Assembly: GCA_022841825.1 (NCBI GenBank)
Contig: JALHQT010000001.1
Coordinates: forward strand, 1,364,001 to 1,428,000
Direction of reading: 5' to 3'
Source of the DNA: Anaerolineae bacterium
GTDB taxonomy: Bacteria > Chloroflexota > Anaerolineae > Aggregatilineales > Phototrophicaceae
DNA: 64,000 bases
Made by a program: the position numbers and the translations under genes
The notes under the pieces: generated by a model
Seen by the model: only the letters and a program-made list of their open reading frames with translations
The model's database searches: none
Told to the model about the DNA's origin: nothing
Shown: positions 13,835 through 36,118 of the stretch, piece after piece
Layout: every line of letters begins with the position of its first letter
Numbering within the stretch: the first letter of the stretch is position 1

Positions 13835-14008
13835 GTGCAGTTCATCGCGCCACCGTAGCACGGCGCGGGCACACGTCCAGCCGCAGGCGGCTGCTGGCTC
13901 GGATTTTGCGCCTGGCTTGTGCCGCTGACGCTCAGCGCAAAATCCGGCAGGGCTGCGCCGACGCGCGCCTGCCTCGCGCCGCGCTCTTTTGGGTGGCATG
14001 AACTGCAC
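13835..14008 (+). ncRNA. candidate structured RNA, copy A, with conserved loop shared with copy B
   Basis: An outer stem pairs GTGCAGTTCAT-CGC-GCCACC (13835-13854) with 13992-14008: 17 base pairs with a 3-base bulge. Inside it is an apical stem of 10 perfect pairs (13901-13910 with 13936-13945) around a 25-base loop that starts CCTGGCTTGTGCCGCTG. A side hairpin (GCCGC-AG-GCGGC, near 13880-13891) sits on the 5' flank. The same architecture and nearly the same loop occur at 35580-35684, but with entirely different stem sequences, which is the signature of a conserved secondary structure. The plus strand is favoured because copy B precedes a plus-strand gene and a plus-strand terminator lies at 14303. 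I do not recognise it as a known RNA family. Confidence 0.5.
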
Positions 14009-14295
14009 GTTACCAAATCGTTGAGCCAGTCGGACGCTGCTACGGGCGGAGTGCAAAGCTTCGTGGCGCTGCGGTCTATCCGCAGCCGAAGCCCTACAAG
14101 AGCAGCGGACGCTCGCGAAACGCATCCGTCCCTGACCAATTCGGGTCAGATGACGCTGAACGTCGTGGATGGGGCTGTGAAAGACAAGAAGCAGCCTGCC
14201 GGAACGGTCTACAGTTCGAGGTGGTCGCTCATGCGATCCCGGACTGCATCCAGGCAGCACTCAGCGTCGATGGACGATGGAACAACTGCATATGA
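14002..14295 (+). other. 97-codon open stretch without a start codon, ending just before a terminator
   Basis: This frame is open from a TGA at 13999-14001 to a TGA at 14293-14295, which lies 7 bases before the terminator stem. The translated C-terminal part (for example LQFEVVAHAIPDCIQAAL) looks protein-like. However, there is no ATG, GTG or TTG early in the frame, and the opening stop lies in the 3' arm of RNA candidate A. It may be the decayed remainder of a gene interrupted by that element, or chance in GC-rich DNA. A competing plus-strand frame starting at an ATG near 14150 is open through the terminator and is less plausible. Confidence 0.25.
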
Positions 14296-14302
14296 CTTTT
14301 GG

Positions 14303-14336
14303 GAGAGGGGCGCGAAGCCTCTCTCTTTGTTTTTGT
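14303..14336 (+). terminator. rho-independent terminator, plus strand
   Basis: GAGAGGGGC (14303-14311) pairs with GCCTCTCTC (14317-14325), with one G-U pair and a 5-base GCGAA loop, followed by TTTGTTTTTG. It implies a plus-strand transcript arising within 13540-14300, where no convincing gene with a start codon exists. It therefore supports a transcript carrying RNA candidate A. Confidence 0.7.
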
Positions 14337-14372
14337 ACGAATGGGATAGCTGGATGGACGAGGTGAATGATG

Positions 14373-14840
14373 ATGGCAAGAGAAACGCACGTGATGATCG
14401 CGGGCAGCCGCCACGCGACACGAGAGATGTTCGACTATGCGCGCCGTGCCGTTCAGCGCGCACACCAACTTGGGTGGACGATCCTCGTCGGCGACAACCC
14501 GAAGGGCGTGGATATGGCGGTGGTGCAGGAATGCCGCCGCTTACGGGCAAAGGTGATCGTCGCTGGAATTGCCAACTTCCCGCGCAACTATGGCTGCAAG
14601 CACGGTCGATACATCAAGGTCACGCGCGATCTGTATCCGGGCACAGGCGGGGAGCAGCTCGACGGCTACACGGTACGCGATCGCTGGATGGTCGATAACG
14701 CACAGCGATGCCTGTTCATCTGGAACGGTGATAGCCCCGGCACGAAGCGTGGGCATGATTACGCGGTGCTGCGTGGCAAACAGGCGCATCTCATCAACTT
14801 CGTGTCGTGTCTCACAAAGTTTGACACGCAGCACGGCTGA
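14373..14840 (+). CDS. SLOG-fold (DUF2493-like) nucleotide-binding family protein, C-terminus altered
   Basis: The N-terminus MIAGSR, the following GVDMAVVQECRR segment and the VIVAG strand fit the SLOG/DUF2493 family of small Rossmann-like proteins, thought to bind nucleotides or nucleotide-derived ligands and common on mobile elements. Three ATGs occur in a row; the third (14373) has the best spacing to a GAGGTG ribosome site. The last dozen residues (VSCLTKFDTQHG) are encoded by the first copy of the 20-bp repeat array that starts at 14807. The native end may therefore have been replaced when that array arrived. The specific ligand and role are unknown. Confidence 0.6.
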   Translation: MARETHVMIAGSRHATREMFDYARRAVQRAHQLGWTILVGDNPKGVDMAVVQECRRLRAKVIVAGIANFPRNYGCKHGRYIKVTRDLYPGTGGEQLDGYTVRDRWMVDNAQRCLFIWNGDSPGTKRGHDYAVLRGKQAHLINFVSCLTKFDTQHG

Positions 14841-15104: not shown

Positions 15105-16595
15105 ATGAACGTCCATATCATCGCAGTGGACACCTATGGCGCGCAGCGCGTCACCGATCCGCGCACGGGTAAGCGGGTCAGCGCGTACAAGCTCGGCTAC
15201 ACCAGCGCGGTCACGGCGGTGCTGCTGGCACTGTATGGCGATCAGGCGCGCGATGTGTCGCCGAAGCAGGCGTCCTACCGCTACATCCAAATTGATGGCG
15301 ATGTCGTGGTGCGGCATGGACACATCCTGATCGCGCTCACAGCAGATGAACAGGCGAAAGCGGAGCGCATCACGCGCCAACACCATCGCGCCGGGGTGTA
15401 CCTGTGGCGGGATCGGAAGTGGTGGGTGCTGCCAGATAGCTCGCACGCGGACTACACGGAGCCGGGCTATCGCGTGGGTCCGAGCTTCGACCCGACGGGT
15501 TTTCGTCCGCCGTCTCCATCGACGGGTGAGCGAGAGAGCGTCGCCACAGGCATTACGGTCGAACGCAGCCAGCGTGAGGAAGGCGGGCGAGTGTGGTGGT
15601 GGATCAATGGCGACACCTATCCGCACCGCGAGCTGCTCAAGCGGCATGGCGCGCGCTTCAGCGGCAAGCGGAAGGCGTGGTACTGGGTCGGTGCGGAGCT
15701 GCCTACCGCGATTCAAGCGCTGACCGCGACTGAAGCTCAGCCTATTGCACCTGAGCAAATATGCTCTGTACCCAACATGAGTCCCGAACTCGCCAACATG
15801 ATAGAAGCTGCGCTGGACACGGACGAAGCCAGCGAGCCAACAGTAGCGCACAGCGATGAACGGAACGTGGCAGTGCAGCCGCAGATTCGCGTTCTCAAAC
15901 CGACGCCGCTGCCTGCTGATGGCGAACCGCTGGACGCAGTGCAGACGGCTCTTCTATCGGTCAAGGCGCAGCCCATCGCCGCAGTGCAAGGTACCGCGCT
16001 CGCCAATGGGCGCGCTGTACGCATCGGACAGGAATTTGTCGGCGAACTGACGGGCAGCATCACCGGGCAGGTGTTCTGTTACGGGTATGCCGTGCATGAA
16101 GGCATCTGCGTCTATGTCAACATGGCGGGGCCGCGTATGGGCGTGGAAGCCATCCGGGCGAAGCTGAGTAAAGGCGATCAGGTGTCTGTCGTGCCGCTCG
16201 ATGCACCATCTGTTGAACTGACAGCAGGCGAGGGCAACAGCGGCATGTATCACGCCTACCTGCACTACCTGCCCGAAGCACGGTTCGCGTCACTCATCCT
16301 CGTACATGACTGGGCGGTCGCGCCAAACTACGGTGGCAAATCGACCACCTTCATCTTTCGCACCAGCGAGGCACAGGCAATCGCCAAGCTCAAGCACCAT
16401 GTGATGCAGCTCGTGAATATTCCCGTGTTCGATGCGTGGTCAGCCTACCTGTATGATGCGGGGCAGCGGGCAATGCTCGTCCGCAAGACACGCAGCGCAG
16501 GCGGGATTGACCTTCTGAGCGTTGATCTTGATGTGGATTCATGGACGCGGCTGATTACGGGCGGGCTTGAGCAGAACATCATCACGCTGGTGTAA
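15105..16595 (+). CDS. uncharacterised 496-residue element protein
   Basis: I do not recognise a family. The protein begins MNVHIIAVDT and contains two similar short Trp-rich segments, HRAGVYLWRDRKWWVLP near residue 93 and HGARFSGKRKAWYW near 180. These resemble repeated small modules seen in proteins of mobile elements. A middle stretch (about 225-300) is of low complexity, and a C-terminal half of alternating beta-strand and helix follows. There is no signal peptide or membrane segment. Two inverted copies of the 20-bp repeat lie within 90 bases upstream and could control it. It is followed after 40 bases by the antitoxin gene. ParB-like or accessory replication functions are possible but unsupported. 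Confidence 0.6.
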   Translation: MNVHIIAVDTYGAQRVTDPRTGKRVSAYKLGYTSAVTAVLLALYGDQARDVSPKQASYRYIQIDGDVVVRHGHILIALTADEQAKAERITRQHHRAGVYLWRDRKWWVLPDSSHADYTEPGYRVGPSFDPTGFRPPSPSTGERESVATGITVERSQREEGGRVWWWINGDTYPHRELLKRHGARFSGKRKAWYWVGAELPTAIQALTATEAQPIAPEQICSVPNMSPELANMIEAALDTDEASEPTVAHSDERNVAVQPQIRVLKPTPLPADGEPLDAVQTALLSVKAQPIAAVQGTALANGRAVRIGQEFVGELTGSITGQVFCYGYAVHEGICVYVNMAGPRMGVEAIRAKLSKGDQVSVVPLDAPSVELTAGEGNSGMYHAYLHYLPEARFASLILVHDWAVAPNYGGKSTTFIFRTSEAQAIAKLKHHVMQLVNIPVFDAWSAYLYDAGQRAMLVRKTRSAGGIDLLSVDLDVDSWTRLITGGLEQNIITLV

Positions 16596-17658: not shown

Positions 17659-20600
17659 ATGTCTAGGCTCGAAAACAAGCAGATGATGGGATTCTTTGCA
17701 ATCGAGGAGCGCCACTACCCGGCGCTCTTGTCATTAATCCACCCAGCTACACCCGCCCATCGGCTGTTGGATCCGTTTGCCGGTGAGGGCGCATTTCTCG
17801 AAGCGGCGGCGCGGTCGTGGAACATGGCACCGTATGCCAACGAGCTGGATGGGGAGCGGGCGGCGGCTTGCATTGCCCGTTTCGGCGCGATGCAGGCGGT
17901 GCGCTGTGACGTGGAACGACTCGTTGCCTCCAACAATGCCTTTGGCGCGGCATGGCTCAATCCTCCCTATGACCATGACGCGAGCGCGTCAGGCAGCAAG
18001 CGCGTCGAGTTCCGCTATCTGCGCCATGCCTGGAAATGGGTACAAGACGGCGGGCTGGCGCTGTGGTGCATCTACCGCCACCACATCACGAGCGAAGCAG
18101 CGGCGTTCCTGGCGAAACACAGCACGCGCGTCGATGTGTGGGCGCTGCCGGGGAAGCACCTCGGTGCGTATGATCAGATGATCGTCGCAGCGATCAAGGG
18201 TGTGCCTCTCGATCCCGCCGCGCTGTATGAGCAGATCATCCGCGACCGCGACCATCCGCAGCCGCTCACCGTGCAGGCGGAGCCGATCTACCGCCTGCCC
18301 ACGCCGCGCCCGATTCAGCGGTTCGTGTTCGCGCCGGATATGCTCGATGAAACCGCCGGGCTAAAACTGATCGAGGAGCAGGGCGCGTGGAAGACGGGCG
18401 GGTTTCAGGCGCTGCTGGATGTACCCGCGCCGCCCACCGAGATCGAACCGGTCGTCGCGCCGCGTCCGGGACACCTGGCGCTGGTGCTGGCGGCAGGCGT
18501 CGCCGATGGTGCGGTGATCGAGACGGCGGAGTATGGGCGGGTAGCGCTGCGCGGCAAGACGCGCCATGTCGAACAAATCGCCCGTGTCGAGGTCGAAGCC
18601 GATCCGAACGACCCGGAACGTCAAGTCAAGAAAACGACCATCCGCCTGAAACCCTCGACTACGCTCTCGCTCCTGAGTGGAGATGGCACGACGGTCGAGA
18701 TGGAAGGTGATGAGGCGCTGCTCGGTTTCATCACGTCCAACAAGCGGGCGCTCGCACAGTACCTCAACGCCAAGTTCCATCCGATGTACCGCTTCGACTT
18801 TGCTGGGATCGGGCAATGGCTTGATCGCATCCGTTTAAAGGGCAAGTACCCGATGTACACCGCGCAGAAGCATGTCGTCGGTGCGATTGCGCGTGGGTTT
18901 CAATCGCGCAGCAGCATCCTGCTGATCGGTTCGATGGGCACGGGAAAGACGCTGATGGGCGGGTCAGCCGCCGTCAGCATTGCGTCCGGCATTGTGAAGG
19001 CGCTGGCGAACGACATGCGCCCGGATCAGGTGGTGCTGATCGTCGCGCCGCCCCACCTGATTGAGAAGTGGAAACGGGAACTGGCCAGCATTGCGCCGAA
19101 AGCGGTCATCGAACGGCTGGATCGGCATGAAGACGTAAAAGCCTTCCTACAGCGCGCCGAAACCCTGCCCGCGCATGTGCCGAAGATCGGGCTGATCAAA
19201 CGCGACTTGACCAAGCTCGGCTGCGCGTGGGAGCCGTCGGTTGTCTGGCGAACCGAAGCGGTTGCGCTGTGGCGGCATGGCGCGCCTGTCCCGGATGGGT
19301 ATTTGCCCCACCAGCGTATCCGGCGCGAACGTGTGCCGAAATGCCCGCACTGCGGAAACACCGTCATGCAGGAGAAGAAGGGCATCAGCGCGCCCGCGTC
19401 GCAGTCGTGGCTGGAAGGCGGCAAACGGTCATGCGCTGCCTGCAATGCACCGCTCTGGCGTGACAGTCGAGACAAGGGTTCGCAGCCGAAGCCCGGCGAG
19501 AAGTATGCGACCAAGAACCCGCGCTACCGCCTCGATGAGTACCTCAAGCGCATGTTCCCGGATCGCGTCTATCTGCTGATTTGGGACGAGGTGCATGAGT
19601 GTCAGCACGGGGACACGGGCAATGGCGAGGCGTTCAGCCGGATGGCGGGCATGGCGAAGAAGGTGCTGGCGATGACTGGCACGCCGTTCAACGGACGCGC
19701 CTCGTCGATCTTCAATCTGGAGTACGCGCTGAATCCGCGCGTGCGCCAGCATTACCACTGGGGCGGCGGGACGCGCTTCAGCAGGAAGCAGCGCGGGACG
19801 CAGGAGTTCCAGGCAATTGTCAGCGACAGCGCCAACCAGCGCGGGCGAGCCGAGTCGCGCTGGGTCGCGGCGATGGGCGTGCGCGAGCAGGTGGTTGAGG
19901 AACGCCCGTCGTATGACCGTGACACGGGCGCATATACAGGCACATCGACCTACGAGCGCCCTTACGAGGAAGCACCCGGAATTTCGCCGCTGCTGGTGGC
20001 GGAAGTGCTGGATCATGCGATCTTCTTCAGCCTGGGCGATCTGGGCAAGGCGCTGCCGCAGTACGAGGAAATCGCACTGCCGGTTGTGCTTGACGATGAT
20101 GTGTCCGCGCAGTACGACAAGACACGCCAGCAGTTGAAGGACTATCTCATCCAGCGCCGATGGGAAGGCGATACGACATTTCGCGGGTCATATCTGCAAT
20201 GGTCAATGGGTTGGGTGAATGCGCCGTTCCGTCCGTATGAAGTCATCCACAACCTGAAGCATCCGGTCAGCGGCGAGAAGCTGGCGCACACCGTCGCCAG
20301 CATCCCCAGCTACGGCGAAGAGCGCATCTTCGCCAAAGAGCAGGCGCTCATCGACCTGGTGCGCGATGAACTGGCGGCAGATCGTCCGTGTGTCATCTAC
20401 TTCCGGCAGACCGCCACCCGCGATGTGCAGCCCCGCTTCGAGCGACTGCTGCGCGAACACATCCCCGAAGCCAAGTCGTTCATCCTGAAAAACACGGTCG
20501 ATGCTCAACGGCGCGAGAAGGTGATTGAGGCGGAAGTCGCCAAAGGCTGCAATGTCCTGATCTGCAATCCGGAGCTGACCAAGACCGGATTGGACTTGAT

Positions 20601-21234
20601 CTTCGCGCCAACCATCATCTTCTTCGAGATTGTGTTCAATCTGTCGACGATGATGCAGGCGGCAGCGCGCTCGTACCGCCTGAACCAGACGCACACACAC
20701 TGCAAGGTCTACTACCTCTTTGCCGAGGGCACGATGGAGCAGACGGCGGTGCAGCTCATGAGCCGCAAGCAGCGCGCTGCGAAACTGCTCACCGGCGATA
20801 TTGGGCTGACGGGTCTCGATTCTCTGACGGAAGGTGAGGGCGGCTTTGAGGAAGCGCTGCTCCAGGCAATCGGGCGCGACGAGACGCTGCTCGATCCGAC
20901 CGAGCTGTTCAAGGCAGAGGCGAAGGTGCGCGAGATTGATCAGGAGGACGCGGCGTACTGGAATGTCGAACTGACGGAGGGTCCGAGCGAAGAACCGCCT
21001 GCTGCCGACCCAGCCCCGCATCCCGACCCGCTCATTGCCGAGGCGCTGCGCGTGGGCGGCATCCTCCGCGACGCGTTGCCGCCATCGGCACCCGCTGCAC
21101 CACGTCCCGACCTGCTTGCCCTGCGCCGCCTCGAACGCGCGCAAGCCAGCAAGCGCCGCGAGACGGTCGCGCCGACGCCCGTTGTGCCGAGGAAGGACGT
21201 GGATGAGCGCGTGGTGCAGTTGGCGCTGTGGTGA
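17659..21234 (+). CDS. DNA adenine methylase-helicase fusion (DUF6094-like MTase plus SNF2-type helicase)
   Basis: The protein has 1191 residues. The N-terminal 200 form an N6-adenine methyltransferase: AdoMet motif LLDPFAGEGAF (36-46) and catalytic NPPY (101-104). After a linker with a small beta domain, a superfamily 2 helicase begins with Walker A GSMGTGKT (424-431). A four-cysteine zinc ribbon (CPHC...CAAC) is inserted before the Walker B box DEVHE (about 643). The C-terminal RecA lobe ends in the motif VI-like ARSYRLNQTH near 1003. Methylase-helicase giants of phages and conjugative elements, such as DarB-like antirestriction proteins, share this plan. Protection of incoming DNA is therefore a plausible role but not shown. 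A terminator precedes it and it appears monocistronic. Confidence 0.8.
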   Translation: MSRLENKQMMGFFAIEERHYPALLSLIHPATPAHRLLDPFAGEGAFLEAAARSWNMAPYANELDGERAAACIARFGAMQAVRCDVERLVASNNAFGAAWLNPPYDHDASASGSKRVEFRYLRHAWKWVQDGGLALWCIYRHHITSEAAAFLAKHSTRVDVWALPGKHLGAYDQMIVAAIKGVPLDPAALYEQIIRDRDHPQPLTVQAEPIYRLPTPRPIQRFVFAPDMLDETAGLKLIEEQGAWKTGGFQALLDVPAPPTEIEPVVAPRPGHLALVLAAGVADGAVIETAEYGRVALRGKTRHVEQIARVEVEADPNDPERQVKKTTIRLKPSTTLSLLSGDGTTVEMEGDEALLGFITSNKRALAQYLNAKFHPMYRFDFAGIGQWLDRIRLKGKYPMYTAQKHVVGAIARGFQSRSSILLIGSMGTGKTLMGGSAAVSIASGIVKALANDMRPDQVVLIVAPPHLIEKWKRELASIAPKAVIERLDRHEDVKAFLQRAETLPAHVPKIGLIKRDLTKLGCAWEPSVVWRTEAVALWRHGAPVPDGYLPHQRIRRERVPKCPHCGNTVMQEKKGISAPASQSWLEGGKRSCAACNAPLWRDSRDKGSQPKPGEKYATKNPRYRLDEYLKRMFPDRVYLLIWDEVHECQHGDTGNGEAFSRMAGMAKKVLAMTGTPFNGRASSIFNLEYALNPRVRQHYHWGGGTRFSRKQRGTQEFQAIVSDSANQRGRAESRWVAAMGVREQVVEERPSYDRDTGAYTGTSTYERPYEEAPGISPLLVAEVLDHAIFFSLGDLGKALPQYEEIALPVVLDDDVSAQYDKTRQQLKDYLIQRRWEGDTTFRGSYLQWSMGWVNAPFRPYEVIHNLKHPVSGEKLAHTVASIPSYGEERIFAKEQALIDLVRDELAADRPCVIYFRQTATRDVQPRFERLLREHIPEAKSFILKNTVDAQRREKVIEAEVAKGCNVLICNPELTKTGLDLIFAPTIIFFEIVFNLSTMMQAAARSYRLNQTHTHCKVYYLFAEGTMEQTAVQLMSRKQRAAKLLTGDIGLTGLDSLTEGEGGFEEALLQAIGRDETLLDPTELFKAEAKVREIDQEDAAYWNVELTEGPSEEPPAADPAPHPDPLIAEALRVGGILRDALPPSAPAAPRPDLLALRRLERAQASKRRETVAPTPVVPRKDVDERVVQLALW

Positions 21235-27749: not shown

Positions 27750-28576
27750 ACACCTTCAGCGCCACCTACGGACAGCTCGCCCTCGCGCTCACGGGCGATC
27801 CGCTCCTTCTGCTAGCATCCGCTGTCGCCACGTTCGATCCGTTTTGGGCAGCCTTCGACGAGACGGACATCGACGACGAGACCGATCCGCTCCAGATTGC
27901 GTTGCAGGTGACACGCGGCGCATTCCCGGACATCTACGCTGAAGCGGTCGAGCGGTTGCGGGCGGGCGCGTCGTATGCGGAGCTAGATCGGCTGCTGTGC
28001 ACGGCGATCACCGCCAAAGGCATCCCGCTCGATGATCTCGACAGCATTGGGTGGGGGATTCCACTGAACGCGGTCGGGGTTGATCTCGAAGACCCGGAGT
28101 TTTACGCTGTTCACAGCGACTTGTTCCCCATCCTTGCGCCGTTCGGCATCGCTATCCCCGAAGGCGAAACCTACAGCGTGGATGTGCCGGAATGTGTCTA
28201 TGCCGCCGGGCGCGCCGTCGCTGCCAGCCTGACCGATCATCCCGATTCGGCGCTGCGACAGGTAGGATGGGCGTTCGCGTGGATCTTCTCGTGCAGCGGG
28301 AACAGCCTGATCGACGACACAGCCGAGTCGCTTGCCGAAATCCCGCCGCTCTCGTGGTCAGCGGAGGATGTCGCCTTTGCGATTGAGCTGGTCGAAGAGG
28401 CGGACGGCATCCTGCGCGATGTGCAGACGGGGATTGAGACGCTCAAGGCATCACCTGATCTGATGGCGGCGTTGGAGCGGAATGTCGCCCATCTCTATCG
28501 TGAACTGAAGAAGAAAGGCAAGCTCAATGAACGGAAACGACTATGCTGGGCAAGCGTTAGCGTCGGCGCTGAATGA
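27746..28576 (+). CDS. PRTRC-operon protein of unknown function (possibly F)
   Basis: This protein of about 276 residues is read from a GTG that overlaps the preceding stop. It is acidic and mostly helical, with no transmembrane segment: MNTFSATYGQ at the start, a central FPILAPFGIAIPEGETY segment and a Lys-rich end. Its position between C and B fits the PRTRC protein F slot, but the identification rests on gene order only. It overlaps the B gene by 50 bases in another frame, an unusually long overlap. Confidence 0.55.
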   Translation: MNTFSATYGQLALALTGDPLLLLASAVATFDPFWAAFDETDIDDETDPLQIALQVTRGAFPDIYAEAVERLRAGASYAELDRLLCTAITAKGIPLDDLDSIGWGIPLNAVGVDLEDPEFYAVHSDLFPILAPFGIAIPEGETYSVDVPECVYAAGRAVAASLTDHPDSALRQVGWAFAWIFSCSGNSLIDDTAESLAEIPPLSWSAEDVAFAIELVEEADGILRDVQTGIETLKASPDLMAALERNVAHLYRELKKKGKLNERKRLCWASVSVGAE

Positions 28577-29228
28577 GCAGCCATCGCTGATTCTCTCGTT
28601 CTACAGTTACGGGCTGATGCTGCGTAAGACTGACGGCGAAGTCACACAGGAATATCCGGTTGATCCGGCGCAGATCGCGCTGGCGCTGGCGGCGAAAGTC
28701 ACATTTGACACCGGGCTGCTCGGCGGCAATACGCTGCTGGTGCGGCAAGATGGCGTGAAGAAGACGGTCGTCGAATATCGCCCGCCGCAGAAGACGGGCA
28801 TCTATTTCGACGACGCGGAGGCGGCGCTGCGCGTGCCGCTGCCGGGACTGGTCATGATCCGTGTGACTGCCAGCGACAAAGCGCCGCAGTATGGCGTGTA
28901 TGCGGTCAAGCGCCGCCCGGAAACGCTCGATACGCCGCTCTTTCATGCCCCGCTGCCGAATGTGTTCGGGTCGGGTGGCGTGTGTTGGGGAACAGTGCAG
29001 CGGGTGGCGGATGAGGCATTGCGCGGTGCGTCGCTGAGGGACGATTGGGCGATGCTGCTCGGATCGCCGTTTGGCAATCACGCCTGTTCAGGCAAGTCGC
29101 GCAGCCATCCACAGGACATTCGCGCCAAACTGGTCGCGCTGGAAGCGCAGAAGGCGAGGCGGTACCCGGTATCCGACCTGATCCCCGTCAGGAGGACGCT
29201 GGCACAAGCGTTGGGAGATGCGACATGA
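28527..29228 (+). CDS. PRTRC system protein B, E2-like
   Basis: This 233-residue protein contains PLPNVFGSGGVCWG (142-155). It resembles the HPN...G-x-(I/V)-C active-site block of ubiquitin E2 enzymes, with Cys153 at the catalytic position. A conserved VPLPGLVMI strand lies at 103-111. PRTRC protein B has been described in the literature as an E2-like fold. The role would be to accept an activated ubiquitin-like protein from the E1, but the pathway's substrate is unknown. Its stop overlaps the E1 start as ATGA. Confidence 0.65.
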   Translation: MNGNDYAGQALASALNEQPSLILSFYSYGLMLRKTDGEVTQEYPVDPAQIALALAAKVTFDTGLLGGNTLLVRQDGVKKTVVEYRPPQKTGIYFDDAEAALRVPLPGLVMIRVTASDKAPQYGVYAVKRRPETLDTPLFHAPLPNVFGSGGVCWGTVQRVADEALRGASLRDDWAMLLGSPFGNHACSGKSRSHPQDIRAKLVALEAQKARRYPVSDLIPVRRTLAQALGDAT

Positions 29229-32200
29229 ACGGCATTTTCGACCCCAATCTCTACCTCAAGACGATCACGCTGGTGGGCGTGGGCGGCACCGGGGCATCGA
29301 CTGCCCGCATCGTCGCGCGCATCCTCTACGACATGCAGCGCGCACGGCTGCACGCGCCGTCGCTGGTCTTGATCGACCCGGATCTCGTCGAGGAGAAGAA
29401 CATCGGACGGCAGGCGCTGTTTGCGCCCGCGGACATCGGGCAGCCGAAAGCCGAGTGTGTCGCCCGCCGCCTGAACGCCGCGCTGGGGCTGGACATCGGC
29501 TGGATCGCGGAGCCGCTCGACCCGGAGCGCCATGCCGACCGCTTCGGCACGGGTCTGGTGATTTCGTGCGTGGATAATCACGAAGCGCGGCGTGCCGTCC
29601 ACCGGATAAAGGGGATTCTAATCGGTGGGGGAAACCATGCGGACGCCGGGCAGGTCTGCATCGGCAATACCGATGACCTGGAGCTGATGCGCCGCTACAT
29701 CGATGGGCGCGACGGCAAGTATCCGTATCTGCCGAAGGAGGGGCTGCTGTTCCCGGCGCTGCTCGAGCCGGAACCGACGTCAGAACGTCCGCTCGCAGCA
29801 CCTGGCGCGTCGTGCGCCGAACTGGTCGATGCGGGCTACCAGCACCTGCTGATTAATGGTGCGCCCGTAACAGGGTGTTAGTCTCAGAGGAGAGAAATCT
29901 CTACTTCCTGCGGAAAGGGAAGTTGCTCAGCGCCTTACCCAAAGTGCGAAAGCGTGATGGGGAACATAGCACGGCGTCAAAAGGGAAGATGACCGCTCCA
30001 TCAAGCGGTCAGGCTTCTTAGAGCAATCTCGATACGGTGAAGGCTGAATTGCTTGAAGCTCAGAGGCAAGTGGGGCAACAGGACCCAAGCAGGAAGATGG
30101 TGATACCTGCTTTCACATGAATGAGAGTTGCGTCGTTCTCAACTGTCATATCCGCTCATGTGGCACAGCCCACGTAGATGGGATGAAACCTCGAACGAGC
30201 CACCTAAGTCGAGAGGGTCTGAACTAACGTCTAAACGGGGATTGCCCCTGTCTGAATGCGATTTTCGCTATGGCGTTTGCGCCTGAATATCAGACGAGGC
30301 AACGGAGCCTGCGTAGTAGTCTGAGGACGGGAAAGCCGTCCACATGGCGAAGGCAGGCAGGTTTTCATATCAGAAGCGGAGTGAAAGGCGCACAAAGTGC
30401 AAAATCCAATTGTTCTGCTGACGATGCTTGGCAATATGGCTCGCAAAGCCGATGTGAAGTTCGACAAGCTGTTCCCCAAGTTGTACAACGTCGAACTTTG
30501 GCTTATGGCATATCAGCGTATCGCTCCCAAACCTGGCAATCTGACGGCAGGGGTGGACGGCACGACCATTGACCGCACGGGGAAAGCACGCATTTACAAA
30601 CTCATTGATGAGCTGCAAACGGCGCGCTACACCCCTCATCCTGTTCGGCGTGTCTACATTCCAAAAGCAAATGGCAGCTTCCGACCTCTAGGCATTCCTT
30701 CGTTCGAGGATAAGTTGCTGCAAACGGTCGTCAAGCTCTTGCTCGAAGCGATCTATGAACCAACATTTTCGCCCGATTCACACGGTTTCCGACCGGGACG
30801 AAGCTGTCATACGGCGCTTGAGCAGGTTAAAGTCATGAAAGGGATTCGGTGGTGGGTTGAAGGAGACATTCACGGCTTCTTTGACCACCTGCAACATGAT
30901 ACGCTGCTGGGCATTCTGGGGAAACGCATTACAGACAAGCGGTTTCTACACCTCATCGGTCAGTTTCTCAACGCAGGCTACATTGAAGCGGGTGTGAAAT
31001 ACGACACCTACTCAGGAACACCGCAGGGTGGCAACCTCAGCCCCTTACTCGCCAACATTTACCTCCACGAACTCGACCGTGCCATCCAAGAGAAACAACA
31101 CGAGTTCAACCGAGGAAAAGAGCGACGAGTACGTCCTGAATATCGCCGCTTACAACGACACAAACGCAGGGCAAAAGCGCAAGCCAAGGTTAGCGGGAAT
31201 TGGACAACCTTCAAAGCACTCCAACGTCAACAGCTAAAGATGGAAGTCACTGACCCGTTTGACCCGACCTTTCGTCGTCTGGAATATGTCCGCTATGCGG
31301 ACGACTTCCTGATAGGGGTGAATGGAAGCAAAGCTGATGCACACCAAATCAAAGATTGGCTAACGGATTTTCTCCACACGCAGCTGGGCTTGGAACTCTC
31401 GGCAGAAAAGACGCTAGTCACGAACGCCAAAGAGCGAGCACGGTTCTTAGGCTACGAGGTTCAACGGTGGCAAAGCAACCGCATACTGCGCACACGGAAT
31501 GTCAAATATGGCGCGATAACGCGACGGACAACGAACTTTCATCTACGCCTACTCATTCCTCGGGACAAGGTACAAAAATTTGCACGCACCTATGGAGCAG
31601 CCGAGAAATGGAAAGCAAAAACCCGTCCGCATGTCCTCCGCCATAGTGAGTTGGAAATTCTGCTTATCTACAACGCAGAAACACGGGGTTTCCTAAACTA
31701 CTATGCCCTAGCCGACAATCTCAGCTACGTCGCTGCTAACGTTCTATGGCTGACCACCAATAGCTTCCTGAAAACGCTCGCCAACAAACGGCGATGCAGT
31801 GTCAACAAAGTCGTCAAATCACTGAAAACAGCACCAAATACCTTCGACCTGAGGTGCCGCAAACCCGATGGGACAGTAAAGATATACCGCTTGGTTTCGT
31901 CCACTCGGCAGTTGAAACGGGCAAAGGTGATGCACACAGATGTTGACCGGATAGCCACAACATGGCAATACCGGTTACCAACTGAATTGGGACAGCGACT
32001 GAATGCCAACCAATGTGAATGGTGCGGAACAACCGAAGGGTTCATGGAAGTTCATCATATCCGACGACTGCGTGACCTAAAGGGAAAGGCTGCGTGGGAG
32101 ATTCGCATGATTGGTAAACAGCGAAAAACAATGGTGCTATGCCAATCGTGTCACTATGCCTTACACGCTGGAAAGCTCACGGAAGCGACGAGACAGAAAG

Positions 32201-32466
32201 CCAAGTGAAGACTGGAGAGCCGGATACACGGAAACGTGTACGTCCGGTTCGGGGGGGAGCGCAGTGAAACCGACTGTAGCGATACAGCACGGCGCACGGC
32301 GCTTACCCTACACTGGATCGCGACGGTGATCGGCACCTACGTCTACAAGCTGCTCCACAGGCAGCCCATCCGCACCTTCGCCACGTTCGTCAGCCTCGAT
32401 GGCATGAGCGCGCGGAGTTTGCCGATTGGGCGGGAGGAATTGGCGGCATATCTTTCTGATGGCTAA
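29225..32466 (+). CDS. PRTRC E1-like ThiF-family protein, split by a group II intron (exons 29225-29858 and 32312-32466)
   Basis: The first exon encodes the adenylation domain: GVGGTG nucleotide loop (18-23), DPDLVEEKNIGRQ (51-63) and the conserved SCVDNHEAR (114-122). A cysteine lies in GASCAEL (197). The second exon encodes DWIATVIGTYVYKLLH through to LAAYLSDG. Joining G29858 to A32312 gives a GAC codon and restores one frame of 262 residues, the normal size of the PRTRC ThiF protein. Without splicing, translation stops within the intron at 29881, losing the last 50 residues. E1 enzymes adenylate the C-terminus of a ubiquitin-like protein; protein C is the likely partner. Confidence 0.8.
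29859..32311 (+). mobile_element. group II intron inserted in the E1 gene
   Basis: The 5' end reads GTGCGCC, the group II consensus. Domain V is a perfect 34-mer hairpin at 32217-32250 (GAGCCG ... GAAA ... CGGTTC). Domain VI follows, closing with GCGCTTACCC, in which A32305 is the expected bulged branch-point adenosine, seven nucleotides from the 3' end CTAC. The stretch 29859-30396 is the ribozyme's domains I-III. The ORF lies in domain IV. Splice sites restore the host reading frame exactly, so the element is probably active or only recently fixed. Confidence 0.9.
30397..32208 (+). CDS. ltrA: group II intron reverse transcriptase/maturase with HNH endonuclease
   Basis: This 603-residue protein uses a GTG start (an in-frame ATG at 30424 is an alternative). 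Reverse transcriptase blocks include IPKANGSFRPLGIPS, the GTPQGGNLSPLLANI block and the catalytic YADDFLIG. The maturase (X) domain follows. The C-terminus is an HNH nuclease zinc module: CEWC (about 553), HHIRRLRDLKG and CQSCH (about 586). Such proteins help the intron fold and splice, cut the target DNA strand and copy the intron back in (retrohoming). All catalytic motifs look intact. The gene symbol follows the Lactococcus prototype. Confidence 0.9.
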   Translation: MQNPIVLLTMLGNMARKADVKFDKLFPKLYNVELWLMAYQRIAPKPGNLTAGVDGTTIDRTGKARIYKLIDELQTARYTPHPVRRVYIPKANGSFRPLGIPSFEDKLLQTVVKLLLEAIYEPTFSPDSHGFRPGRSCHTALEQVKVMKGIRWWVEGDIHGFFDHLQHDTLLGILGKRITDKRFLHLIGQFLNAGYIEAGVKYDTYSGTPQGGNLSPLLANIYLHELDRAIQEKQHEFNRGKERRVRPEYRRLQRHKRRAKAQAKVSGNWTTFKALQRQQLKMEVTDPFDPTFRRLEYVRYADDFLIGVNGSKADAHQIKDWLTDFLHTQLGLELSAEKTLVTNAKERARFLGYEVQRWQSNRILRTRNVKYGAITRRTTNFHLRLLIPRDKVQKFARTYGAAEKWKAKTRPHVLRHSELEILLIYNAETRGFLNYYALADNLSYVAANVLWLTTNSFLKTLANKRRCSVNKVVKSLKTAPNTFDLRCRKPDGTVKIYRLVSSTRQLKRAKVMHTDVDRIATTWQYRLPTELGQRLNANQCEWCGTTEGFMEVHHIRRLRDLKGKAAWEIRMIGKQRKTMVLCQSCHYALHAGKLTEATRQKAK

Positions 32467-33224
32467 TTCTCCTTCAACTGAACGTAGATGTCTGAATTGC
32501 CACCCTTGCTTTCTCGTTTCTCCATCTCAAAGAAATGCAGATTAGCCTGAACGAGTTGCGAAAGGAGCTTGTGACCATAAGTACGAGGGTCGAAACCAGG
32601 ATCAAGCTTTCGTAGCGAGCTTCCCAGTGTCCCTAAATGCGCCCAACCATCATCCTGAACGACGGAGTCAAAAGCTGTTCGGAACAGCGATTCGAGATGC
32701 GTTGCCTCTGTAGGCGCTTGTTCAGACGTGGAGACCGGAGATTTGGTTTCCGACACCGCATCGGAAACTTCTGTCAGAGGTATATCGTCCGTTTTAAGGT
32801 TTTCGGTGTACACGAAAACATCACAGGCATTCACAAAGGCACGCGGCGTGGTGCTTTTCCCAATCCCCATCACAAACAGGTTCTTCTCACGAACTCGAGT
32901 TGCGAGAGGCGTGTAATCGCTATCACTCGAGACGATACAGATACCATCAACCCCCGCTGTGTTGATGAAATCCATGGCGTCAATGATGAGTGCAATGTCT
33001 GTTGCGTTCTTGCCTGCTGTGTAGCTGAACTGTTGCTCTGGTTTCAGAGCGTAAGTATGTAGGAGTTCCTGCCAAGCTTTAAGCTGTGGTGATGCCCAAT
33101 TCCCATATACCCGACGTATCTTCATAATCCCGTACTTGCTCACCTCGGCAAGCATCTGTGGTAACAATGCTGCCTGTGCGTTGTCCCCGTCAATCATCAG
33201 CATTAGCCGCCGATTTGTTTCCAT
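32463..33224 (-). CDS. NYN-domain nuclease with C-terminal LOTUS/OST-HTH-like domain (cargo)
   Basis: This protein of about 253 residues has a PIN-like NYN domain: LMLMIDGDNAQ, ATDIALIIDAMDF and VSSDSDYTPLATRVRE supply the conserved aspartates. A Ser/Thr/Glu-rich linker leads to a C-terminal segment (FRTAFDSVVQDDGWAHLG...DPRTYGHKLLSQLV) that fits an OST-HTH/LOTUS RNA-binding domain. Such proteins are probable RNA-cleaving enzymes. The start at 33224 is preferred for its GAGGTAG ribosome site. The stop overlaps the E1 gene's stop by four bases, tail to tail. A TGCCAGA/TCTGGCA hairpin lies upstream at 33291-33315. Confidence 0.8.
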   Translation of the reverse strand: METNRRLMLMIDGDNAQAALLPQMLAEVSKYGIMKIRRVYGNWASPQLKAWQELLHTYALKPEQQFSYTAGKNATDIALIIDAMDFINTAGVDGICIVSSDSDYTPLATRVREKNLFVMGIGKSTTPRAFVNACDVFVYTENLKTDDIPLTEVSDAVSETKSPVSTSEQAPTEATHLESLFRTAFDSVVQDDGWAHLGTLGSSLRKLDPGFDPRTYGHKLLSQLVQANLHFFEMEKRESKGGNSDIYVQLKEN

Positions 33225-33360
33225 GTCATCTACCTCGTTGAACGCGACCATTCCATCATACCGCTATGAACGGAACATAATTGCTTAACATGCCAGATCG
33301 CAAAGCCTTCTGGCACTTCAACAAGCTCACATACTTCCAATGAGACGAAAGGAAAACCTC

Positions 33361-35141: not shown

Positions 35142-35579
35142 GTAAGCTGCCTAACCTGATTGCAACTACACCAATGGTAACTGAAATGAAGGCTTTACAT
35201 GCTTCAGTTCGCCGCCGTTCGCCCGACGCTTTGCCAAGTGCTAGCCCGCCCCTTCTACCAATCGCCACCCTGCTTCAATCATCTCGATTAGCGTCCTTGC
35301 AGCTCGCCAAAGCGTCTGATCCTCCACCTCGTCTCACCACCCGCGTGTCGCCCACACTCGCCTGCTGCATCCGCCACCAGCGTTCCATCGTTCGCACAGA
35401 GCAGCGTTTCGCCGCGCGACGCGTTGACACTGGCGAGAGGCTGCGCTGCATCCACCTCAGCCGGGCGGTCGCGCCTTGTTCGTGACGCGGATGCGCTGGC
35501 GTCATGATCTCCTCTTGCGCGGGCTGCTTTCATCCGACCCGAAGCGTGCCGATTTGTCACTGACCATCCTAGCAGGCGC

Positions 35580-35684
35580 GCCGCCCATCATAACGACTGG
35601 CGTCGTCACGCTTGACCCGATTGCTCCTGGCTTGTGCCGCTGCGCTCACCGCAATCGGGTAGCGCCCTTTGGGTGATGGGCGGC
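35580..35684 (+). ncRNA. candidate structured RNA, copy B, upstream of ssb
   Basis: The outer stem GCCGCCCATCA (35580-35590) pairs with 35674-35684 over 11 bp. The apical stem ACCCGATTGC (35615-35624) pairs with 35651-35660 over 10 bp around a 26-base loop. That loop contains CCTGGCTTGTGCCGCTG and CGCTCA, as in copy A. A small ACGAC/GTCGT hairpin (35593-35606) sits between the stems on the 5' side. The flank CCTTTGGGTG at the 3' arm is also shared with copy A. It ends 77 bases before the ssb start, so it may be a leader controlling ssb or an independent RNA. The remaining sequence of 35142-35761 shows no convincing gene. Confidence 0.5.
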
Positions 35685-35761
35685 TCTTTCGCCTGCTCTT
35701 GTCCGGTCAGAAATCGGCACAGGGTCGATGGAAAGAGCGCGCAGGCGCGAGGAGAGACATC

Positions 35762-36118
35762 ATGGGCAGCAGCATCAACATTCAGGTCACGGGATACGTC
35801 GGCAGCGATCCGCAGGTGCGGCAGGTGGGTGAGCAGAGCGTCGCGTCGTTCTCGGTGGCAGTCAGCCGCAAGAACCGCAACGGCGAGAAGCAGACGCTCT
35901 GGGTGCGCGTCAATTGTTGGAACCGCCTCTCTGAGGTGGCACAGCAATTCGTGAAGAAGGGTTCGCTGGTCCAGGCGAGTTCAGATTGGCTGCGACCGAG
36001 CGCGTGGACGGATCAGAGCGGGACTCCGCAGGCGAGCCTGGACATGGACGCCAACCGCCTCGTCCTTCTCGACCGCGTCGAGAACGGCGCGCATGGCGAG
36101 GAGGAAGTCGAGTTCTAG
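35762..36118 (+). CDS. ssb: single-stranded DNA-binding protein
   Basis: This 118-residue OB-fold protein starts MGSSINIQVTGYVGSDPQVR and contains SFSVAVSRKNRNG and LWVRVNCWNRLSEVA, the core strands of bacterial SSB. The acidic end (GEEEVEF) replaces the usual DDDIPF tip, and the flexible tail is missing. A GAGGAGA ribosome site lies 6 bases upstream. SSB coats single-stranded DNA during replication and conjugative transfer; a short element-borne version fits the primase and methylase-helicase genes of this window. The upstream structured element could regulate it. Confidence 0.85.
   Translation: MGSSINIQVTGYVGSDPQVRQVGEQSVASFSVAVSRKNRNGEKQTLWVRVNCWNRLSEVAQQFVKKGSLVQASSDWLRPSAWTDQSGTPQASLDMDANRLVLLDRVENGAHGEEEVEF

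Follow-up and report, generated by a model that had tools for sequence, protein, structure and literature searches.

A family of folded, DNA-like elements upstream of ssb and SLOG-like genes in presumed conjugative-type elements of one bacterial order

Copy A and copy B are palindromic elements within the window, by which is meant the whole 64,000-nucleotide stretch of DNA that was analyzed. They belong to a family of 54 distinct stem-flanked copies recovered by pattern searches, all but one of which are found within the same order as copies A and B. Evidence from these elements points to single-stranded DNA of the bottom strand, which is the template of the adjacent genes, rather than to plus-strand RNA. 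On balance it seems probable, though far from assured, that copies A and B represent a family of DNA elements that function during the single-stranded state of the bottom strand, serving as a single-stranded promoter or priming site in the presumed leading region of a conjugative element, and resembling Frpo in role and not in sequence. They may turn on gene expression soon after the DNA has entered a new cell. An initial annotation of the window had described a two-copy structured element (copy A at 13835-14008, copy B at 35580-35684); this is confirmed, and the family proves to be larger. The parts of the two copies are as follows.

13835..14008, minus strand: copy A (SLOG-type, or type 2), a palindromic element recognized from sequence, bottom-strand DNA folding and homologues, and read as bottom-strand single-stranded DNA
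13835-13845 / 13998-14008: outer stem of copy A, from sequence
13878..13893, unstranded: side hairpin P2 of copy A, CAGCCG-CAGG-CGGCTG, from sequence; a hairpin of different sequence is at the same place in many relatives
13900-13911 / 13935-13946 (13900..13946), unstranded: apical stem P3 of copy A, from covariation, enclosing the conserved tip
13914..13931, minus strand: tip of copy A, two adjoining bottom-strand mini-hairpins, GC-GTCA-GC (GNNA loop) and GGC-ACAA-GCC, from the DNA fold and the loop and stem variants of relatives
35546..35720, minus strand: copy B (ssb-type, or type 1), from sequence, DNA folding and homologues
35546-35555/35711-35720: outer stem of copy B, GTGCCGATTT/AAATCGGCAC, from sequence
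35580-35590/35674-35684: inner stem of copy B, from sequence
35615-35624 / 35651-35660 (35615..35660), unstranded: apical stem P3 of copy B, from sequence and the DNA fold
35629-35645: tip of copy B, on the bottom strand GC-GCA-GC (GNA loop) and GGC-ACAA-GCC, from the DNA fold
35665..35673, unstranded: hairpin P4 of copy B, CCC-TTT-GGG

Each element comprises, in order, an outer stem (P1), a side hairpin (P2), an apical stem (P3) with the conserved tip, a hairpin (P4) that is found in most copies, and the second arm of P1. P1 mostly carries TAGCA...TGCT. In an alignment of 26 of the 27 cores then in hand (L164 was left out), changes on both sides are present in 19 of the 24 base pairs predicted by RNAalifold, so the wholesale replacement of stems with pairing kept, which the initial annotation had noted from two copies, is borne out across relatives. 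The palindrome that it described is real and is longer than it supposed, with arms of roughly 100 nucleotides in most copies and about 150 in some. Its figure of 10 base pairs holds for the apical stem of copy B; that of copy A has 12. Two main types are distinguished, the SLOG-type (copy A) and the ssb-type (copy B). Copy B had been placed in the ssb leader, and indeed ssb is located directly 3' of it; in a leader alignment, the ssb-type palindrome reaches the ribosome-binding site. When folded as bottom-strand DNA, copy A has a z score of -6.4 and copy B (35540-35780) a z score of -4.8, and in each case 0 of 200 shuffled sequences folded as well. A MITE or REP-like repeat, with dispersed copies and alike stems, was rejected: the stems differ between most copies, and the elements recur at one place in a gene run.

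The recognized form of the element is found in 31 of 154 genomes of the order. The pattern GCTTGTGCCGCTN{0,2}CGCTCA occurs at 32 places in 24 of 151 genomes of relatives (home genome included), and its reversed control at none. The pattern GGCTTGTGCCGN{5,7}CTCA, which leaves 5 to 7 loop bases free, occurs at 72 places in 35 of the 154 genomes, versus 5 places for its reversed control. Four of these 35 genomes have unrecognized middle strings only, and inspection covered all of the 72 places except those in G036 (C278), G045 and G102. In a sample of the phylum, 6 of 400 genomes were matched, and because the sole hairpin-borne copy beyond the home genome was L250, in G356, the family appears to be nearly confined to the order, with the pattern used. 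In assembling the 54 elements, chance matches were removed and copies sharing the same 12-nucleotide flanks were counted once. L251-L254 were removed from the mismatch count as chance matches, and L277, L302, L305, L306 and L307 were likewise dropped as chance matches. L252 had passed the stem filter by chance and was removed by eye, whereas L300 failed the filter, is a clear palindrome and was restored by eye. L205 and L246 are short, atypical copies and were retained.

Searches with an exact 16-mer returned at least 119 stretches from a very large genome collection, with no further copy having the apical stem among the matches listed, and 39 stretches from a viral collection, none with the apical stem. 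The exact matches outside the home genome were therefore set aside as chance-like. A scan of the home genome allowing three mismatches (203 places, versus 179 for the reversed sequence) was uninformative apart from the known copies. One SLOG-type stretch had no blastn match among named plasmids, and one ssb-type stretch had none among phages. Rfam models at the gathering threshold identified only a group II intron in the window and nothing for the element, and 10 loci searched at E up to 1 gave a single match, located outside the element. The earlier statement that no known family has this loop thus agrees with the Rfam searches made, in which the element has no match. The initial annotation had also looked to homologues with covarying stems for support, and pattern searches of the order's genomes supplied them.

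The initial annotation read the element as a conserved RNA or folded single-stranded DNA and not as a MITE. The element is structured and is not a MITE, and the option of single-stranded DNA had been named; it is the emphasis on plus-strand RNA that does not hold. Were the transcribed element to fold as a leader or noncoding RNA, it might regulate ssb and the SLOG gene, and the covarying stems, as well as a structured RNA candidate after copy A, count in favor of such an RNA. G·U pairs are common in RNA stems. However, isolated mismatches in the core stems of 39 elements comprise 27 A·C, 12 G·T and 53 others versus 3083 matches, so the ordinary use of G·U on the transcribed strand that is a feature of structured RNAs is not seen in the core. 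An A·C mismatch on the top strand equals G·T on the bottom strand. Among the core pairs predicted by RNAalifold, which favors G·U on the folded strand, the plus strand has 16 G·T and 20 A·C, and the minus strand has 20 G·T and 1 A·C. The few G·T pairs of the core, together with the features of the tip and P4 given below, make a plus-strand RNA quite unlikely in our judgment.

The conserved loop reads TGA-GC-GNA-GC-GGC-ACAA-GCC on the bottom strand, and this corresponds to two adjoining mini-hairpins, both of which are present in the DNA folds of copies A and B. In 50 of 54 elements, the loop of the first mini-hairpin, read on the bottom strand, is GNA (47 elements) or four-base GNNA (3 elements). 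Under this loop, the tip stem varies among GC/GC, GT/AC, GG/CC and GCC/GGC, and a pair other than Watson-Crick is found there in 6 of the 54. The four tips that lack a GNA or GNNA loop have the top-strand strings CTTTG, CTGGTG, CTAAAG and CTGTG. Matches were selected through fixed flanks of the tip, and with some patterns also through part of its stem and loop; GGCTTGTGCCGN{5,7}CTCA left the middle free.

The P4 loop is TNC on the top strand, and hence GNA below, in 34 of 41 P4 hairpins, including all 8 with a T-A closing pair. The loop of copy B is among the 7 exceptions. Excluded from this count are 12 elements without a countable P4, as well as L300; 4 matches to the pattern were judged by eye not to be P4, and apart from L252 there were 8 elements in which no match occurred. 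P4 in the form C(TNC)G would, we presume, also be a UNCG tetraloop in RNA, and this was counted in favor of a plus-strand RNA. However, where P4 has a T-A closing pair, an RNA UNCG tetraloop would be lost, and the GNA and GNNA loops of the opposite strand persist through such changes of the closing pair.

By using DNA parameters, the bottom strand was calculated to be the more stable in 43 of 54 elements (p 5e-7 overall and 2e-5 against flanks, values that are optimistic in view of the elements' shared descent). No such preference beyond that of the flank control was found in the 54 elements with RNA parameters. Like Frpo and ssi, the elements have a stable secondary structure when folded as single-stranded DNA, as the DNA folds of copies A and B and the strand preference indicate. 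Because G·T pairs are few, the GNA or GNNA mini-hairpin is on the bottom strand, and DNA folding prefers that strand, the copies are unlike a transcribed plus-strand RNA. The signature of the family is DNA-like and belongs to the bottom strand.

The RNA suspected in the initial annotation seems instead to be located next to the element, downstream of copy A.

About 14009..14335 (limits chosen by us), plus strand: candidate for a conserved structured RNA in the interval from copy A to the SLOG-like gene, from alignment folding and a terminator-like site

In SLOG-type loci, the approximately 330 nucleotides between the element and the gene are conserved. A set of seven sequences that includes copy A has a z score of -9.9 on the plus strand (G·T 60, A·C 9) and -7.9 on the minus strand, which is a modest strand preference. 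A sister set of seven, one of them shared with the first, has -11.9 on the plus strand (G·T 89, A·C 10) and -5.9 on the minus strand. The latter counts differ from those of the element core on its plus strand, although RNAalifold favors G·U, and this difference is a further argument against reading the element itself as plus-strand RNA. Because of that same bias, the G·T and A·C counts alone are a weak sign; a better one is how far the two strands differ in energy (32 kcal/mol in the sister set and 19 kcal/mol in the set with copy A). The initial annotation took a plus-strand terminator to support transcription of copy A. A terminator-like hairpin with a T-rich tail is indeed found on the plus strand at 14301-14327 (one found; shuffles gave a mean of 0.4), but the RNA that is likely transcribed sits downstream of copy A. 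Most sequences of the sister set have a hairpin and then a T-rich stretch at the same place. The RNA candidate had no Rfam match in the searches made.

The genes around the two copies include the following.

14367..14840, plus strand: SLOG/DprA-like gene, 157 amino acids (Pfam DNA_processg_A, E 0.0073, below the curated cut-off), which follows the type-2 element in many relatives
15105..16595, plus strand: 496-amino-acid protein of the same gene run, whose cluster is found around 15 elements, with no Pfam or NCBIfam match
17659..21234, plus strand: DUF6094 methyltransferase-helicase of the same gene run (Pfam), whose cluster is found around 14 elements
28527..29881, plus strand: PRTRC-like protein B (28527-29228; TIGR03737, 4.8e-17) and ThiF-like protein (29045-29881; TIGR03736, 1.3e-27), both below NCBI curated cut-offs
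35762..36118, plus strand: ssb gene (Pfam SSB, 7.5e-15, for the longer open reading frame 35669-36118), directly 3' of copy B, whose palindrome has its base at the ribosome-binding site of ssb

Among 50 elements with at least 700 nucleotides downstream, the downstream gene on the same strand is ssb in 20 and SLOG-like in 13, and is reversed in none. The other 17 have neither gene by motif within 1.3 kb. Members of the SLOG cluster are nevertheless found after two of these 17, at +883 (L227) and +840 (L229), and members of the cluster of the 496-amino-acid protein after three, at +5407 (L223), +1844 (L224) and +208 (L230). The elements therefore have a single orientation before an ssb or SLOG-like gene wherever one is recognized, and conjugation genes are nearby in relatives. 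Between elements of the two types, the recurring genes encode the SLOG-like protein, the 496-amino-acid protein, the methyltransferase-helicase, a conserved primase-like protein (PriCT_1, E 7.9e-4, below the cut-off), PRTRC-like protein B and the ThiF protein, followed by ssb. Within the PRTRC-like region of the window, a group II intron with a reverse transcriptase/maturase occupies 30397-32311, and an NYN-LOTUS protein is encoded at 32463-33251, between the PRTRC-like genes and copy B.

Beyond ssb, relatives encode an RHH protein, a relaxase-like protein and a coupling protein. The relaxase-like family (A2) has a conserved Tyr and HxH, and had no match in Pfam, NCBIfam or the PDB, the last searched with a profile. 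The coupling protein matches PF02534 with 2.7e-35 in L221 and 5.4e-34 in L308. Still further on, G022 (L310) has a VirB4/TraC-like ATPase (2e-11, below the cut-off) and a topoisomerase. Among the window proteins sent to Pfam, no coupling protein or known relaxase was identified, so the window's own element may be incomplete. As judged from gene content, the surroundings of the copies are best explained as the presumed leading region of a conjugative-type element, probably integrative, that carries a PRTRC-like module. In the F plasmid, ssb and most leading genes run on one strand toward traM, traJ and traY, and the comparison of gene order uses the place that we take oriT to have in F. We infer that the present region is likewise a leading region and that the bottom strand, the template of these genes, is the strand transferred. 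That oriT was not located weighs against this reading, as does the lack of a database match for the relaxase-like protein.

Two further observations concern the neighborhoods of ssb-type elements. In G041, an HsdM-like methylase (PF02384) and further large open reading frames at L308:10135-17992 separate the ssb-type element from the relaxase-like gene and may make up a type I restriction-modification set. A PAPS-reductase-like gene at L267:6426-7526, possibly with an anti-defense function, is conserved upstream of the ssb-type element.

In the explanation that we prefer, the bottom strand would be transferred and would fold on entry, with the tip hairpins resisting unwinding. The folded duplex might then recruit an RNA polymerase, such that ssb and the SLOG gene run would be transcribed before second-strand synthesis, and the same start may also prime that synthesis. 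Past a SLOG-type element, the transcript would begin with the conserved structured RNA. At most ssb-type loci, the DNA upstream of the hairpin could also pair with ssb, and the gene would be partly double-stranded in the entering strand. A search of the 3' arm for sigma-70 sequences in 52 of 54 elements gave a mean best score of 7.37, equal to that of shuffles (7.37); the order's polymerase may use other sequences.

Alternatively, the folded bottom strand might act as an sso or ssi site, at which RNA polymerase or a primase starts second-strand synthesis, without driving gene expression. The sso of ICEBs1 is a known single-strand initiation site, according to the account in PMC4595007. The few G·T pairs, the GNA and GNNA loops and the bottom-strand folding fit such a site equally, and the gene run encodes the conserved primase-like protein noted above. 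However, the element is immediately before ssb, with the palindrome reaching the ribosome-binding site, and before the SLOG gene, in one orientation where these genes are recognized. Moreover, a plus-strand structured RNA candidate follows type 2, and two copies per element would seem redundant for mere priming, all of which leads us to consider this alternative unlikely.

It is less probable still that the elements are single-stranded recombination or replication sites, either attC-like or plasmid origins, that adjoin these genes by chance. AttC sites likewise use the bottom strand and combine stems of variable sequence with an unpaired part that is conserved. A second partial module starts at TTAACAAA, about 430 nucleotides after the element, in L195 and L214, and in L197 the sequence changes at TTAACAAA, just after CACCT, as if modules had been joined there. 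Even so, across several families of the order, the elements recur at one position of a conserved gene run rather than in a cassette array.

F-like plasmids have promoters of single-stranded DNA, Frpo and ssi (Masai and Arai 1997, cited in PMC11541004). As described in PMC11541004, Frpo is found ahead of ssb in leading regions, and SSB stimulates it. The present elements are similar in their predicted folding as single-stranded DNA and in their location, in one orientation, before ssb and other genes of a presumed leading region. In contrast to Frpo, they have no sigma-70 -35 and -10 sequences above shuffles, and because this feature was tested and found wanting, the elements are kept apart from Frpo. 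They differ also in having a branched fold with a conserved GNA or GNNA tip and in that the one SLOG-type stretch searched has no match in named plasmids, and the ssb gene of F has none of the gene-length complementarity described below.

The promoter of the N4 virion RNA polymerase is reported in PMC4496689 to be a template-strand hairpin, with a three-base loop containing a sheared G:A pair, that is helped by SSB and whose stem bases are partly free provided that pairing holds. The template-strand tips of the present family share the G-N-A type of loop (50 of 54, GNNA included). However, N4 uses one short hairpin and a phage polymerase, whereas the present elements are multi-branched with arms of roughly 100 nucleotides or more, and no T7-like virion RNA polymerase was matched among the proteins sent to Pfam. 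GNA and GNNA mini-hairpins such as d(GCGNAGC) are described in PMC4686876 as extraordinarily stable DNA, a physical motif with nuclease resistance. The tips resemble them in having a GNA or GNNA loop over at least two pairs, but are conserved and natural, with a covarying stem that is not always solely G-C. Like structured RNAs in Rfam, the element has a covarying multi-branch fold, and the region downstream behaves like such an RNA, but the element itself matches none of them.

According to PMC11541004, Frpo-like single-stranded promoters were found in thousands of conjugative elements through similarity to five known sequences, and where similarity failed, candidates were built on the -35/-10 consensus. 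A design free of this consensus, far from the Enterobacteria, would suggest that conjugation in general requires leading genes to be switched on from single-stranded DNA, that this requirement has been answered more than once, and that searches built around Frpo overlook such elements. If confirmed as a control element, it would be a new design of a rarely seen kind, with about 50 natural variants that follow a clear code of GNA tip and branched stem.

The ssb-type loci have a further feature. The sequence upstream of the element, once reverse-complemented, gives an alignment with the coding region of ssb that in some loci extends up to about the stop codon.

35210..35476, unstranded: arm upstream of copy B, showing weak complementarity to the coding region of ssb (local alignment score 80)

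Among 20 ssb loci, the z score of this complementarity is 4.0 to 13.3 in 14, 2.9 in copy B, and 0.1 to 1.5 in five (L258, L297, L269, L295 and L228). The maximum among 29 non-ssb loci is 2.9, and the two groups differ by a Mann-Whitney p of 1.9e-7, which is optimistic given shared descent. This comparison covers 49 of the 54 elements, with L300 and four elements with short flanks left out. Because the z score of copy B is no higher than that of the best non-ssb locus and is matched by some shuffles, copy B alone would prove nothing.

In extended ssb arms, mismatches number 55 A·C, 42 G·T and 122 others (489, 478 and 1608 in a cross-locus control), a slight excess only of A·C. Runs of 5 to 9 paired bases are in excess over the cross-locus control. 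A scarcity of runs of 10 or more was discarded as evidence, since they are equally rare in the control. The ssb gene of the F plasmid has no gene-length complementarity (z 0.4), and in the open-access literature searched we found no report of a self-complementary ssb or of a conjugative single-stranded promoter of such a kind, which does not prove that none exists.

Both selection for pairing and repeated inverted duplication remain compatible with the fold-back over ssb. The complementarity, as distinct from the element, might be a functionless and decaying inverted duplication of ssb that is occasionally re-made by template switching at the hairpin, an account to which we assign nearly an even chance. 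In most of 18 comparisons, compensation between individual bases comes close to the chance level or falls below it, and in 17 of 18 loci the gaps are mostly in the noncoding arm, the pattern expected of decay with a deletion bias (the slices of 395 and 435 nucleotides slightly favor this result). In addition, the arms of L221 and L261 match the ssb of a relative better than their own. However, in 14 of the 18 rows of a cross-matrix (all but L221, L228, L258 and L261), the arm has its best match in its own ssb or scores equally with a near-identical locus. The match at third codon positions (0.80) is about as good as at the others (0.82), and compensation exceeds expectation in two pairs, L257/L267 (9 versus 2.4-4.4) and L235/L261 (3 versus 0.9-1.7).

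More speculatively, and we think it rather improbable, ssb might carry its own second strand. The upstream region of the entering single strand would fold over ssb in short bulged helices as a stand-in for the non-template strand, and RNA polymerase starting at the folded tip would yield a free, translatable ssb mRNA before the complementary strand is made; the sister element upstream would start the structured RNA likewise. Should the fold-back be maintained by selection, it would represent an unusual way of organizing a gene.

Several relatives depart from the common form. L246 (G000:C1:177374) and L205 (G000:C1:788915) are short, atypical relatives located elsewhere in the home genome, and their P3 stems are alike. 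L284, L289, L290 and L291-L294 are variants with CCTTCGG or GTTCC tips. Among these, L284, L291, L293 and L294 have neither ssb nor a SLOG-like gene by motif, and may precede other genes.
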